A stretch of DNA of 64,000 bases from Spirochaeta lutea (GTDB lineage Bacteria; Spirochaetota; Spirochaetia; DSM-27196; Salinispiraceae): the NCBI RefSeq assembly GCF_000758165.1, contig NZ_JNUP01000047.1, positions 1 to 64,000 on the forward strand, given 5' to 3'. Positions 17,578 to 22,761 of the stretch are shown one piece after another (position 1 is the stretch's first letter; each line of letters begins with the position of its first letter). The notes beneath the pieces were generated by a model, which saw only the letters and a list, made by a program, of their open reading frames with translations, was not told the DNA's origin and made no database searches. Both the position numbers and the translations under genes were made by a program.

Positions 17578-18162
17578 AATCGTCCTTTTGACAGACCGGT
17601 AGAATCCCCTTCACCCCAGGGATTGGCGGCCCGCCGCTTATGGTGTAGTTGAGCATCCTGGAAGATACCGGGACTACTCTATGCTGATGTGATTTTTCAG
17701 TCTGATTTCATTAACACTGCATCAGGGGGGAAGGTATAAAAAAGATCAGCCGTTATTGGTCCGTAGCATACTCCAGCATACGGTACCTCGGGGCGGAACT
17801 TCTACAAACCTCATGGTTCTGGGTGTCCAGAATTCTTATTGTGTGGGCTCCGCTGTATGCCAACCCAAAAAACTTTTGTAATTGGCTCAGGTTTTATCCC
17901 ACGGATAGGAATAAATGTCAACTCACCCGTGAACCCGGTTCCACCTGAGTCATGCAGAATTCGATAATTTCTTGATTTTTGCTGTTAAAGGGTGCATATT
18001 TTAAGGGGGTTGGGACGGCTGTCAAAGGCTTGTACTACCCCGGGGTTCGATTTGAACCGGGTTATACCGGGTGTTGCAATAGAGCCCTGCATGTAAAAAA
18101 AAAGCTGCGGTATTTCTAAGCGTGCACTGCTTATGGGAGGGGTTATACCGGAGGAGGCGTTT
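17578..18162. other. 585-bp gap between divergent helicase and EAL genes
   Basis: No gene is evident. It must hold the promoters of both neighbours. Visible items are a small hairpin GGTTC-GATTT-GAACC around 18043-18058, a run of nine A near 18100, and CCGTA...TACGG around 17760-17783. A weak GAATCCCCTTCACCC similarity lies at 17602. A long 5' leader for the helicase would fit, as is common for cold-shock helicases, but no known RNA motif was recognised. Confidence 0.3.
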
Positions 18163-19578
18163 ATGACTAACACGAACTCACATCCGGATTCCCAAGGGAT
18201 CGCGGTTCTTTCCACTGCTGATTTTATTCTGAGTCTTGAAGCCCTGGCAGCCAATGCCAGTACCGCTACACCGGTAATCCTTGCAGCCTGCTGTTTCCCC
18301 GGCGGGGGACTCCGCCGGAGGCTCTCCCGCTTTGACGATCTCCTGAGGAAACAGCGTTTCATAACATCGGGGCTGGGTGAGGTGATGCCGGCCCAGTGTA
18401 TCTTCGGGCAGATAAGTTCCGATGTGTACATGGCAGCCTGGCGGGATACCAAACAACAGCCCGGAGACCTGGAGCTTGTTCTGGATACCATCCGTGGGCG
18501 ACTCCTGGAACTTGGGCAGATTAATCCATCCCTCACCCCGGGAAAGTTCCGCCTCGGCTGCGCTCAATATCCCCTCCAGGGGAAAACCGTGCTGGAAACC
18601 GCCGATATCCTCACCGGGGCCATTTCCATGTCAGACTTTTCCCTGGATAACATCATATTGAACCAAGAACCCCGGGTCATCCAGCGTCTGTCCGAGGAGT
18701 ACCGGCTGATTGACCAGCTTCCCATGGCCCTGTCCCACAATTTGCTATACATGGTAGCCCAGCCGGTGATGAATCTCACCACGGGGCAGCCGGTGAGTTT
18801 AGAGCTCCTGGCCCGGTGGTTTGATCCGGAAACCGGGTTTGTAAGCCCGGACCACTTCGTTCATATCGCAGATAAGCTGGGATTGAGCGAACTACTTATT
18901 GAGAAAAGCCTGTCTGCTGCGGGAGCATTGGCAAAGGTCTTCCAATTACAAAACCTGCCGCTCCCGCTAATGACCATCAATGTAACCATGGCTGATCTGG
19001 TCCGGAAGGATTTCTGTCCGTGGTTCTTCCGCCGGGTAGATCACTGGAATGCTCCTGTGGACCGGCTGGGCCTGGAGATATCCGGCAGGGTGGATTCCTG
19101 GCCACATTACAGCACCGTTGCCAATTTGCGCACCCTGCAGGAAAGCGGCATTGAAATCATCCTCGATGATTTTGGCAGCGGCCCGAATAACTACGAGTCG
19201 GTTTGGTTTCTTCAACCCAGCAGGGTGAAGCTATCCCAGCGTTTCACCCGGGAATTAATCAAGGGAAACCTGGAACCTGATACAGAGCCTGAACACCAGG
19301 GGCACTCGCATTTTGAAATAATTCATAGGCTCACTGAAACCATAGGGGTTTCCGTCATTGCAAAGGGTGTAGAAGAAGAAATACAGGTGCAGTCCCTACA
19401 GGATGGTGGGTTCATCTATGCTCAGGGAAATTTCTTCAGCGAACCCCTGGATCTGGAAAAGGTCGCAGATTGGGTGGGCAGGCTTTCCCTCCCCGGTGCT
19501 GCCGGCAGTCTTCCCGGGGGGATGGAGGATCAAACAGATAGTTTGCTGAGCCTCTTCTCAGACGAGGAACTCTATTAG
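18163..19578 (+). CDS. EAL-domain protein with degenerate GGDEF domain
   Basis: Likely cyclic-di-GMP phosphodiesterase or sensor, 471 residues. The start at 18163 follows GGAGGAGG. The N-terminal ~195 residues keep a GGDEF-like pattern (LGCAQYPLQGKTVLETADILTGA) but lack the GGDEF active site. The EAL part (~195-440) keeps most catalytic residues: SLELLARW (EAL Glu), NVTMADL, LGLEISGR, ILDDFGSG, RVKLSQ and AKGVEEE. The metal and catalytic residues look largely intact, so activity is possible. No membrane helix is present, so it is probably cytoplasmic. A PilZ protein at 53545-54330 could be a downstream reader. Confidence 0.88.
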   Translation: MTNTNSHPDSQGIAVLSTADFILSLEALAANASTATPVILAACCFPGGGLRRRLSRFDDLLRKQRFITSGLGEVMPAQCIFGQISSDVYMAAWRDTKQQPGDLELVLDTIRGRLLELGQINPSLTPGKFRLGCAQYPLQGKTVLETADILTGAISMSDFSLDNIILNQEPRVIQRLSEEYRLIDQLPMALSHNLLYMVAQPVMNLTTGQPVSLELLARWFDPETGFVSPDHFVHIADKLGLSELLIEKSLSAAGALAKVFQLQNLPLPLMTINVTMADLVRKDFCPWFFRRVDHWNAPVDRLGLEISGRVDSWPHYSTVANLRTLQESGIEIILDDFGSGPNNYESVWFLQPSRVKLSQRFTRELIKGNLEPDTEPEHQGHSHFEIIHRLTETIGVSVIAKGVEEEIQVQSLQDGGFIYAQGNFFSEPLDLEKVADWVGRLSLPGAAGSLPGGMEDQTDSLLSLFSDEELY

Positions 19579-19687
19579 GAATCGCCGAGAGGAGGATCCC
19601 CTGCTGCCCCGGGTTGCCCGTCTGCCCGTTACCGGCAACTTCGTTCCACGCCAGGGGCGTTTTTCGTTAAAATCACCCTGAAGAACA

Positions 19688-19715
19688 TTGACAATCTTCT
19701 AGGATTTGATAAGAT
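19688..19715 (+). promoter_or_regulatory. Sigma70-type promoter of leuA
   Basis: TTGACA at 19688-19693 and TAAGAT at 19710-19715 are separated by 16 bp. Transcription would start near 19722, directly at the leader-peptide ATG (19723). Confidence 0.8.
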
Positions 19716-19722
19716 TTGTCCC

Positions 19723-19815
19723 ATGAATGATTATCGGTCTGAACACTTCAACCTCCACCTCCTAGCCCTACTCCTTTTCTCTGGCTCTGCAGTGGCGGTA
19801 CGAGGTAGCCGATAG
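19723..19815 (+). CDS. leuL: Leucine-rich leader peptide of leuA
   Basis: A 30-codon frame between the promoter and an intrinsic terminator. It contains six leucines in an eight-residue stretch (LHLLALLL, codons 11-18) and then a stop at 19813. This is the layout of amino-acid attenuation leaders: ribosomes stalling at Leu codons when leucyl-tRNA is scarce would change RNA folding. The codons CUC, CUA and CUU are mixed rather than one rare codon. The start lies at the predicted transcription start, so the leader may be translated without a ribosome-binding site. Confidence 0.8.
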   Translation: MNDYRSEHFNLHLLALLLFSGSAVAVRGSR

Positions 19816-19869
19816 CCTACCTGGGTATTACCAAGCCCGCTGCGGAGAGATCCGGGCGGGCTTTTTTTT
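19803..19869 (+). terminator. leuA attenuator (pause hairpin and terminator)
   Basis: AGGTAG (19803-19808) pairs with CTACCT (19817-19822) across the leader stop codon. A terminator follows: AAGCCCGC (19833-19840) with GCGGGCTT (19856-19863) and a run of eight T. It ends 70 bp before leuA. Which segments form the antiterminator was not worked out. Confidence 0.82.
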
Positions 19870-19938
19870 AACCCTGTCCGGTACTCCCCGGGCAATCCAC
19901 GCATCCCCAGGGACGGGTACATTCAAAAGGAGGAAGAA

Positions 19939-21675
19939 ATGGCAAAGTATCGACCCTACCCCCCGGTGAAATTGTCCGACAGGACCTGGCCGGAACGGGT
20001 AATCAGCACGCCGCCCCAGTGGTGCAGCGTTGATCTTCGTGACGGGAACCAAGCCCTGGCAACCCCTATGAATATCGATCAGAAAATGAAGATGTTTTCC
20101 CTGCTGGTCGAACTCGGTTTCAAGGAAATCGAGATTGGGTTTCCCTCAGCCAGCCAGATAGAGTATGATTTTCTCCGATCCCTCATCGAGAAGGACCTGA
20201 TTCCCGAAGACGTGACCATTCAGGTCCTGACCCAGAGCCGAAGGCACCTGATTGAGCGCACGGTTCAGAGTCTTAAGGGCTGTAAAAAGGCAATAATCCA
20301 TCTGTACAACTCCACAAGCGAACAACAGCGGCGGATTACCTTTTCCATGAGTCAACAGGAGATCCTGGACATCGCCATTGCGGGAACCAAGACGATTATT
20401 GAACTGCTGCCGGAGCTGGAGGGTACCGAGGTGACTCTGCAGTACAGTCCGGAGAGTTTTACCGGAACCGAATTGCCCTATGCTCTGGAGGTCTGCCAGC
20501 AGGTCATTCAAACCTGGGATCCAAAGCTCCGGGGACCGGTTATAATCAATCTGCCCGCCACCGTGGAGCTATCCACCCCGAATATCTATGCTGATCAGAT
20601 CGAATGGTTCTCCCGTAATTTAGACCACCGTGAACAGATCATTATCAGTCTGCACACCCATAATGACCGGGGTACCGGTGTGGCAGCCACAGAATTGGGC
20701 CTCATGGCAGGTGCCCAACGGGTTGAGGGCACCCTCTTTGGTAATGGGGAGCGCACGGGGAATGTGGATATCGTGACCCTGGCATTAAATCTCTTCAGCC
20801 AGGGAATCAACCCCGGATTGGACTTTAGCAATCTCCCCAGAGTACGGCAGGTGTACGAGGAATGCACCCAGATGGATGTTCATCCCCGCCACCCCTACGC
20901 CGGGGATCTGGTCTTTACCGCGTTTTCTGGCAGTCACCAGGATGCAATTTCCAAGGGGATGGCGTTGGTGGAGGGCAAAACCGAGGCTCTGGGTACCCAG
21001 TCCAAGGCCCGGTCTAGCTGGAACCAGGCCTTTGCTGAGAACACTCCCCTCTGGGATGTTCCGTACATTCCCATAGATCCCAAGGACATCGGGCGTACCT
21101 ACCAGGCCATAATCCGGATTAATAGCCAGAGCGGCAAAGGGGGCGTGGCGTACATCCTTGAACAGGAGTACGGGTTCCGGGTACCCCGGGCGATGCAGCC
21201 AGAACTGGGGGCCGCGGCGAACCGGGTCAGCGATTCTCTGGTGAGGGAATTGACAGCCGAAGAAATTTTCACCATCTTCCAAGAGGAATTTGTAAACTGC
21301 CGAAGCCCGTTCAGCCTAAAGTCCTATTCTCTCCAGAGAAACGGCAGCCACCAGGTAGCCTTTACCGGGGTTTTGCTCCAGGAGGGGGAGGACATGAGAC
21401 TCCAAGGCTTAGGCAACGGTCCCATTGATGCCTTTGTCCATGCACTGAAAGAGGCCTTCGGGCTTTCCCTGAGCGTGGCTGAATACACCGAACAGGCCAT
21501 CGGGGCGGGGAGCGGAACGGAGGCTGCCGCCTTTATCTGCCTTCAAACCGAACACGGGGACCGTATTTGGGGTGTTGGACAGGATACCGACACCTCAGGG
21601 GCGAATTTCGCAGCGATCCTAAGCGCCATAAACCGGGGGATTGCCGCAGGAAACACGGCCTTTTCCAGCCTTTGA
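19939..21675 (+). CDS. leuA: 2-isopropylmalate synthase (type 2, long form)
   Basis: Condenses acetyl-CoA with 2-oxoisovalerate, the first step of leucine synthesis. The 578 residues match the long LeuA subfamily: PPQWCSVDLRDGNQA at ~26-41 (metal and catalytic Arg-Asp), GFKEIEIGFPSASQ, the metal-binding LHTHNDRGTG and a C-terminal regulatory dimer domain (~430-578) expected to bind leucine for feedback inhibition. The start has AAAGGAGG 6 nt upstream. It is controlled by the leader peptide and attenuator described above. No other leu gene follows, since the next gene is mltG, so leuA is probably expressed alone. Confidence 0.97.
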   Translation: MAKYRPYPPVKLSDRTWPERVISTPPQWCSVDLRDGNQALATPMNIDQKMKMFSLLVELGFKEIEIGFPSASQIEYDFLRSLIEKDLIPEDVTIQVLTQSRRHLIERTVQSLKGCKKAIIHLYNSTSEQQRRITFSMSQQEILDIAIAGTKTIIELLPELEGTEVTLQYSPESFTGTELPYALEVCQQVIQTWDPKLRGPVIINLPATVELSTPNIYADQIEWFSRNLDHREQIIISLHTHNDRGTGVAATELGLMAGAQRVEGTLFGNGERTGNVDIVTLALNLFSQGINPGLDFSNLPRVRQVYEECTQMDVHPRHPYAGDLVFTAFSGSHQDAISKGMALVEGKTEALGTQSKARSSWNQAFAENTPLWDVPYIPIDPKDIGRTYQAIIRINSQSGKGGVAYILEQEYGFRVPRAMQPELGAAANRVSDSLVRELTAEEIFTIFQEEFVNCRSPFSLKSYSLQRNGSHQVAFTGVLLQEGEDMRLQGLGNGPIDAFVHALKEAFGLSLSVAEYTEQAIGAGSGTEAAAFICLQTEHGDRIWGVGQDTDTSGANFAAILSAINRGIAAGNTAFSSL

Positions 21676-21714: not shown

Positions 21715-22761
21715 ATGAGAGGATCCAGGATAGTGATATATAAAAAGTTGGGGTTGATACTTCTGGTGATGGCAGCCGTTGGCCTTGGCCTGGGGGCTGC
21801 CGGGGGTGTCCTGCTGTATCAGAGCTGGAGGTCCCCCATGACCTCCCTAGAACCCAGGGAATTTACCATTGCCCGGGGAGACAGCCCGGAACTCATTGCC
21901 AACCGCCTGGTACAAGAAGGGCTGCTCACGAATTCCTGGAGCTTCCGGATTCTGGTTCGGCTCTACGGGTATGCACCGCATATTAAGGCGGGTCGGTATG
22001 GAATCCAACCCGGTGACTCCCTTCGGGACTTTACCCAGGATATTGTATCGGGGAATAGCATTCCAGATGATATTACCCTGCGGTTTACCGAAGGGATGAG
22101 GGTGGATCAGATGGGTCAGATCCTGGAGCAGGCAGGATTTTCATCGGGCCAGGAATTTAACGCCCTGGCCGTGATGGATGAAACCTGGGAGGACCTCTGG
22201 GTCATCCAGGGACTTGAGCCTGGGCAGAGCCTTAACGGGTATCTGTTTCCGGATACCTACCGAATCCGTCCCGGGACGCAACCCCGGAGTATAATCAGAA
22301 CGATGGTGGAGAATCTTCAGGTAAAACTGCAGAGTCTCGGTATAACCAATCGGGATTACCGGAGTCCCCAGGGGCTTTCGATCCACGAAATACTGACCTT
22401 TGCCAGTATTGTGCAGCAGGAAAGCCCCCTGGAAGACATGGAACTGATCGCTGGAGTCTTTGAAAATCGGCTTGAACGCGGTATGCGCTTTGAGTCGGAT
22501 GCAACGGTCAATTTTATCCTCGGAACCAGCAAGCTCATTCCCACCGCCACGGATATCCGTGTTCAGCATCCTTACAACACCTATCTGAACCGGGGGCTTC
22601 CACCGGGCCCTATCGGAAATCCGGGTATTGAGGCTATCCGAGCCACTCTAAATCCCGAACAGCATGACTACCTCTTCTTTTTACACACCCCGGAGGGTGT
22701 AACGGTTCCATCCAGAACCTTCCAGGAGCATCTGGCAGCCCGCAGAATCCACTGGGAATAG
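21715..22761 (+). CDS. mltG: Endolytic murein transglycosylase MltG
   Basis: Inner-membrane enzyme that cuts nascent peptidoglycan strands and sets glycan length. The 348 residues have one N-terminal membrane helix (~10-32), a LysM-like part with FTIARGDSPELIANRLVQEG, and the YceG catalytic domain. The catalytic Glu is in LTFASIVQQESP, followed by IAGVFENRLERGM, RFESDATVN and YNTYLNRGLPPGPIGNPG. All family blocks are present. The start is uncertain: ATG 21715 lacks a clear ribosome site, and a GTG 15 bp further in is possible. It lies 39 bp after leuA. Confidence 0.95.
   Translation: MRGSRIVIYKKLGLILLVMAAVGLGLGAAGGVLLYQSWRSPMTSLEPREFTIARGDSPELIANRLVQEGLLTNSWSFRILVRLYGYAPHIKAGRYGIQPGDSLRDFTQDIVSGNSIPDDITLRFTEGMRVDQMGQILEQAGFSSGQEFNALAVMDETWEDLWVIQGLEPGQSLNGYLFPDTYRIRPGTQPRSIIRTMVENLQVKLQSLGITNRDYRSPQGLSIHEILTFASIVQQESPLEDMELIAGVFENRLERGMRFESDATVNFILGTSKLIPTATDIRVQHPYNTYLNRGLPPGPIGNPGIEAIRATLNPEQHDYLFFLHTPEGVTVPSRTFQEHLAARRIHWE

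Follow-up and report, generated by a model that had tools for sequence, protein, structure and literature searches.

A predicted leaderless leucine leader peptide and transcription attenuator before leuA in Spirochaeta lutea and related spirochaetes

Introduction

In Salmonella and E. coli the leu genes are preceded by leuL, a leader peptide with leucine codons in which CUA serves as control codon, and the attenuator that governs these genes combines an antiterminator with a terminator. The locus described here, upstream of leuA in Spirochaeta lutea, shares with that system the leucine-codon leader, the CUA control codons and a putative attenuation before a leu gene. It differs in the following: the leader is predicted to be leaderless, the leuA product is the type-2 enzyme, and leuC is found on a separate contig, with no such leader seen there; no sequence relation with leuL is claimed.

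The predicted leaderless arrangement has parallels in other bacteria. In Sinorhizobium meliloti, the trpL transcript upstream of trpE(G) is reported to begin at the leader ATG and to carry a full attenuator (PMC7298713), as proposed here, although this system responds to tryptophan and belongs to an alphaproteobacterium. Leaderless leader peptides are also reported from Streptomyces lividans, before leuA, trpE and other genes; its leuL1 is a leaderless Leu-rich leader before leuA, like the one predicted here, but is reported to lack a typical terminator (PMC8079986). The actinobacterial LEU element likewise places an ORF with leucine codons before leuA (PMC1262725), and differs from the present case in that a pseudoknot and the pairing of Leu codons with the Shine-Dalgarno sequence have been proposed for it; leader mutants of S. 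coelicolor leuA are reported not to fit classical attenuation (PMC1262725). In C. diphtheriae, a leu leader has been annotated (PMC5784534). A survey from 2010 states that its authors knew of demonstrated leader-peptide systems in Proteobacteria and Actinobacteria only, and extends the list to Firmicutes (PMC2965389). A reading made earlier from the sequence alone (the sequence-only reading) knew of no studied case in spirochaetes, and our literature search, with most subscription papers outside its reach, likewise met no recognised description of leucine attenuation there.

Results

Anatomy of the leuA leader

The window analysed, namely, the whole stretch of 64,000 nucleotides from S. lutea, contains between positions 19688 and 19938, all on the forward strand, the parts that the sequence-only reading had named, in the order it had given: a promoter, a 30-codon leader with LHLLALLL, a hairpin spanning the leader's stop codon and a terminator with a run of eight T. 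The promoter, read from the sequence, is of the sigma70 type, with a -35 element TTGACA (19688-19693) and a -10 element TAAGAT (19710-19715) separated by a spacer of 16 nt. The leader ATG lies at 19723, only 7 nt after the -10 box, and opens the ORF MNDYRSEHFNLHLLALLLFSGSAVAVRGSR (19723-19815, 30 codons), which is predicted to be leaderless. Its codons 11 to 18, namely, CTC CAC CTC CTA GCC CTA CTC CTT (19753-19776), would be the control codons, six of them for leucine and two of these six CTA. The stop codon TAG (19813-19815) is enclosed by a hairpin at 19803-19822 (pairs 19803-19808:19817-19822), which forms the apex of the predicted antiterminator. This is followed by an intrinsic terminator hairpin (19833-19863, -21.8 kcal/mol) and its T8 tract (19862-19869), whose first bases pair within the hairpin, and then by the Shine-Dalgarno sequence AAGGAGG (19927-19933, read from the sequence) of leuA. 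The leuA gene itself (19939-21675) encodes a 2-isopropylmalate synthase of type 2, with 747.1 bits for TIGR00970 against a cut-off of 697.4.

The upstream neighbour (18133-19578) encodes an EAL-domain protein, similar to c-di-GMP phosphodiesterases, and after it a small terminator-like hairpin, ACGCC-AGG-GGCGT with a T run (19648-19664, forward strand), was recognised by eye, which may insulate the leader from this gene. Downstream, 39 nt after leuA, stands a gene for an MltG-type endolytic transglycosylase (21715-22761).

The combination of these features is rare. In a scan of 648 kb of strand, both strands of the window were read together with 13 stretches, each of 20 kb, that came from 12 genomes of the class, that of S. 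lutea among them; this yielded 6688 ORFs of 12 to 60 codons, 108 of them Leu-rich. Among these 108, a strong promoter at 5-10 nt upstream is present in two and a strong terminator in one; both features together occur once, in the leader of the window. When the 217 nt from 19722 to 19938 are compared with 200 dinucleotide shuffles, the native fold is the better one in 199 cases (z -2.6). An Rfam search of the window gave nothing at the gathering score; for the leader, with E-values up to 10 admitted, the best match was Trp_leader (20 bits against 41, E 0.094), and no leucine-leader family was among these matches.

Recurrence before leuA in related genomes

We read 109 leuA upstream regions, 29 of them from a search of relatives (L001 and L003-L030; L031 was left out, its gene being truncated at the 5' end) and 80 from a search for the family across the phylum; this second search gave matches in 110 of 392 genomes, five of them already in the set, and 80 of the other 105 were read. 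Leader and terminator were called automatically in 66 of the 109 regions. Eight calls were judged dubious and removed (L117, L126, L132, L148, L149, L153, L166 and L180) and one locus, L010, was added by hand, which gives the final set of 59 leaders.

The anatomy seen in the window is found again at 57 of 75 loci of its class, namely, 28 of the 29 from the relatives search and 29 of 46 further ones, versus two of 34 leuA loci in other classes of the phylum. At the remaining 18 class loci a leader with a terminator was not accepted; some of them keep a similar terminator without an accepted leader (e.g., L148, L149 and L166), and at L029 a leader ORF is visible by eye, with no T run, on a contig that is odd at this place. 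The leader of L097, from the Spirochaetaceae bacterium isolate S145_15, is letter-identical to that of L127, from a genome (G308) of the window's class, an identity that links this class to named spirochaetes. In S. lutea itself, no such leader was seen before leuC (on another contig), ilvB or hisG.

A separate scan of contigs, mostly of other phyla, showed under a loose criterion a Leu-rich ORF and a T run before type-2 leuA at 25 of 80 loci, among them two spirochaetes and many Desulfobulbales. By eye, a locus from Nitrospirae (L060) and a betaproteobacterial one (L080) also look leaderless.

Promoter position and the leaderless start

The coincidence of peptide start and predicted transcription start, pointed out by the sequence-only reading for this one locus, turned out to be recurrent. 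Leader start codons were set by a rule blind to the promoter. In 43 of the 59 leaders the best promoter then falls 5-10 nt upstream of this start, versus 12.5% of shuffles, and its score reaches at least 9 in 49 of 59, versus 7% of shuffles. No Shine-Dalgarno sequence occurs in the 25 nt before the window leader. Over the set, an SD-like core of 4 nt is present within 25 nt of the start in seven of 59 leaders, versus 51 of 59 leuA match starts, and within 16 nt in two leaders versus 30 leuA genes.

These numbers bear on the alternative that the locus is a real leucine attenuator with a normal 5' UTR, in which transcription starts further upstream and the position of the -10 box beside the ATG is incidental. 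Such a reading could account for the 16 of 59 leaders in which the best promoter falls outside 5-10 nt; several of these offer another in-frame start within range, but L006-L008, where the distance is about 20 nt, do not. Against it speak the excess of promoters at 5-10 nt over shuffles, the rarity of SD-like cores before leaders when compared with leuA, and the similar promoter geometry of the trpE and alanine leaders of the same genome (see below). We consider a normal 5' UTR unlikely.

Promoters placed in this way are not confined to leaders. In the own genome, a strict promoter-at-ATG pattern occurs at 32 sites, versus three for the reversed pattern, and 22 of the 30 such sites that were read (L207-L236) open ORFs of at least 94 codons. 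As judged by their first residues, the leaderless-looking ordinary genes include coaD, pgsA, metG, metX and ptsI. At L234 (G000:C69:11840-11876, minus strand) a leaderless-looking ORF of 36 codons lies directly 5' of a gene read as pyruvate, phosphate dikinase. Leaderless genes have been predicted in six of 18 spirochaete genomes, at an average of 3.9% of genes (PMC3160421). The motif of that prediction, TANNNT about 12 bp upstream of starts, resembles what is seen at the leaders here; the main text of that source is without the term 'leader peptide', which is where the present case differs (PMC3160421).

Rare CTA codons in the leaders

At least one CTA codon is present in 56 of the 59 leaders. 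The share of CTA among leader Leu codons amounts to 61% in the 24 leaders of the f24 family, which we take to be Treponema-like, and to 21% in the other 35. In the genomes themselves the codon is scarcer: CTA makes up 0.5-6.2% of Leu codons in 20-kb samples of eleven relatives, with the same range for the seven samples of the f24 family, and 7.5% of 2770 sampled Leu codons in the own genome. In S. lutea, CTA is only moderately rare, and the window leader uses it for two of six leucines. In S. typhimurium, changing three leader CUA codons to CUG is reported to lower sensitivity (PMC1183508), and the strong choice of rare CUA in f24-family leaders provides comparative support, outside enterobacteria, for the notion that codon choice tunes the sensitivity of an attenuator.

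An antiterminator that competes with the terminator

Folding of the RNA downstream of a ribosome stalled on the Leu codons yields, as an attenuator would need, an alternative antiterminator predicted to compete with the terminator. It spans 19785-19847 on the forward strand and begins just 3' of the Leu run, with 11 contiguous pairs (19785-19795:19837-19847, two of them U-G) that connect CUCUGCAGUGG with CCGCUGCGGAG, the latter comprising most of the 5' arm of the terminator and part of its loop. Further pairs follow inward (19796:19835 and 19797-19800:19829-19832), up to the stop-codon hairpin, and the segment 19780-19849 folds as a single long hairpin of -32.2 kcal/mol. When compared with shuffles, the window antiterminator has a z of -2.1 as a duplex and -2.8 as a fold.

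The closest relative, L003, whose leuA is 68% identical, has a different leader sequence built on a similar plan: by eye, a GCAG...GUGU stretch pairs outward with ACACCCGCUGC and an inner hairpin, UCCAGAA...UUCUGGA, surrounds the stop codon. The L003 fold before the 3' arm of the terminator has a z of -5.4 against shuffles. Two designs can be told apart in the set. First, at many loci outside the f24 family, the distance from the start of the antiterminator arm to the end of the stop codon is roughly 28-36 nt. Second, at f24 loci this arm frequently shares bases with the stop codon and pairs with the terminator arm and loop.

Over all 59 loci, leader RNA 3' of the Leu run forms a stronger duplex with the 5' arm and loop of the terminator than dinucleotide shuffles do (mean z -1.50, Wilcoxon 6e-9), bearing in mind that the loci are related and that P-values in this set overstate independence. 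The z is below -2 at 22 loci and above -1 at 28, L003 (-0.98) being among the latter. Since the antiterminator arms were, by eye, out of register between species in the MAFFT alignment A2, column-wise covariation on alignments A1 and A2 was replaced by an alignment-free test, in which arms are swapped between loci. With all loci taken together, native arm pairs did better than the mean of the swapped ones at every one of the 59 loci; within groups, the figures were 21 of 24 (f24 family, where three loci do not favour their own partner), 12 of 12 and 23 of 23. Random re-pairing, over 5000 trials, never attained the native sum overall or in the mixed group of 23 loci; for the f24-family group it did so in 0.02% of trials and for the third group, of 12 loci, in 1.9%. 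The native partner is the strictly single best at only five of the 59 loci.

The same regions allowed us to weigh a mechanism of the LEU-element type, in which the run of Leu codons would pair with the leuA Shine-Dalgarno sequence and control translation, the terminator being secondary. In the window, CTCCTTTT at the end of the Leu run (19771-19778) and AAAAGGAG before leuA (19926-19933) are perfect complements of 8 nt, and there is a slight tendency in this direction over the 59 loci (mean z -0.32, P 0.011). However, at least seven contiguous Watson-Crick pairs are found at only seven loci, the window included, and terminators are present here, whereas the S. lividans leuL1 region is reported to be without a typical one (PMC8079986). 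We regard control of this type as very unlikely.

We then modelled how far the terminator 5' arm would be sequestered before its 3' arm is made (start codons of L006, L012, L138 and L191 were set by hand). On average, predicted sequestration is 0.70 with a ribosome on the Leu codons, versus 0.55 for shuffles, and 0.28 once the ribosome stands at the stop codon and none of the RNA upstream of it may pair. The corresponding values for the window are 0.78 on Leu, 0.02 at the stop codon and 0.56 for shuffles, 17% of which sequester the arm as well as the window does. If pairing across the ribosome is allowed, the stop-codon value rises to 0.46 on average and to 0.73 in the window, against 0.78 when stalled, and the average without any ribosome is 0.51. 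Under this second model several f24 loci still switch clearly, e.g., L140 from 0.64 to 0.16, but the window does not. The off state of the window, if real, would thus require that the ribosome shields 19785-19824 as the polymerase moves past.

Once the full terminator is included, the window at equilibrium prefers the terminator fold both for the stalled ribosome (0.92) and for the one at the stop codon (0.96), so that the switch, if real, must be kinetic. The same preference in both states would suit a constitutive terminator accompanied by a Leu-rich peptide that senses nothing, or simply a terminator belonging to the upstream gene. Yet the leader has its own promoter, the upstream gene is already followed by the terminator-like hairpin at 19648-19664 (by eye), CTA is enriched in the leaders, the composite of features was matched a single time in 648 kb, and the antiterminator pairing is locus-specific. 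We give this alternative the lowest standing of the three, as highly improbable.

Alanine and tryptophan leaders

A second leader of the own genome, L237 (G000:C27, 31162-31245, minus strand), has the sequence MKHTNLSSQHLHLAAAAAAAATMVGPL, with 27 codons and eight consecutive alanines. A promoter lies 7 nt before its ATG, and a terminator and then a gene for a PRK06855-type aminotransferase follow; this gene matches NF005334, and its second-best model is alanine aminotransferase. Leaders with four to eight consecutive alanines precede this gene in 11 of 12 genomes of the class that have it with a readable upstream region (the relatives of L237 being L238, L239, L240, L242, L265 and L273-L277). 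Within this count G315 has four alanines and G427 has no such leader, and G037, with only 183 nt upstream, was set aside. The run of alanines is absent from the 27 loci read in other classes, where nine further genomes with the gene fall outside the count.

Each of the 11 alanine leaders comes with a terminator hairpin and, 5-8 nt ahead of a start picked by hand, with a promoter-like site. As the modelled ribosome moves from the Ala codons to the stop codon, arm sequestration drops clearly in L239, L265, L273, L274 and L275 (from 0.8-1.0 to 0.0-0.4), partially in L242, L276 and L277, and not in L238 and L240; in L237 itself it hardly falls (0.6 on Ala, 0.5 at the stop codon), an intermediate position giving 0.1. 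In three f27 relatives (L273-L275) a predicted antiterminator helix of 13-14 bp extends from a few nt 3' of the Ala codons to the stop codon. The leaderless-looking poly-Ala leader and the terminator before the PRK06855-type aminotransferase gene are thus a candidate alanine attenuator.

The trpE gene of the own genome (L279, G000:C62, before 179116) is preceded by a leaderless-looking leader, MKRYCIEKHCKRNLSNIWNWRPM, with two Trp codons and a promoter gap of 7, and then by a terminator-like hairpin with a T run. The search for trpE matched 42 genomes and gave 30 loci (L279 and L282-L310 among the loci), 27 of which have at least 178 nt upstream; a Trp-rich leader and a T run are present in 18 of these 27.

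Discussion

We conclude that the locus before leuA is probably a ribosome-mediated leucine transcription attenuator driven from a leaderless mRNA, a reading to which we assign a probability of about 0.87. Its parts and their order, its recurrence, the codon bias and the complementarity of the antiterminator are evident in the sequence and its comparison. The leucine attenuation proposed by the sequence-only reading is thereby supported from several sides, namely, antiterminator, recurrence, codon choice, promoter position and locus-specific pairing. Its wording, 'classical translation attenuation', holds as to attenuation but needs correction as to mechanism, which would be ribosome-mediated attenuation of transcription.

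The transcription start site, leaderless initiation, stalling and leucine response that we infer would fit together as follows. RNA polymerase would start at or adjoining the A of the leader ATG, and a ribosome would load on the bare 5' end and trail the polymerase. When Leu-tRNA is short, above all the tRNA for the rare CUA codon, the ribosome would stall within codons 11-18 and leave the RNA from 19785 free, such that the antiterminator could fold, capture the 5' arm of the terminator and let transcription continue into leuA. When Leu-tRNA is ample, the ribosome would cover 19785-19824 while the polymerase makes the terminator; with the antiterminator blocked, the terminator at 19833-19863 would form and leuA would be off.

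The alanine leader is a more novel lead than the leucine attenuator. The only alanine leader met in our literature search is alaL before alaS of S. lividans, which was reported as new (PMC8079986). If our reading holds, the aminotransferase gene of these spirochaetes would be under an alanine attenuator that has both a terminator and an antiterminator. Together with the leucine and tryptophan leaders, this case makes it likely that attenuation by leaderless leader peptides is a system of general use across the class, covering several amino acids.

The principle of attenuation is known from other bacteria, and it is the leaderless-looking arrangement that apparently recurs in many related spirochaetes. 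With the leuA locus, classical amino-acid attenuation would reach a bacterial class in which our literature search found no leucine case described. It also suggests that in this class the regulatory ribosome loads at the bare 5' end of the mRNA, in which case ribosome and polymerase would be coupled from the first nucleotide.
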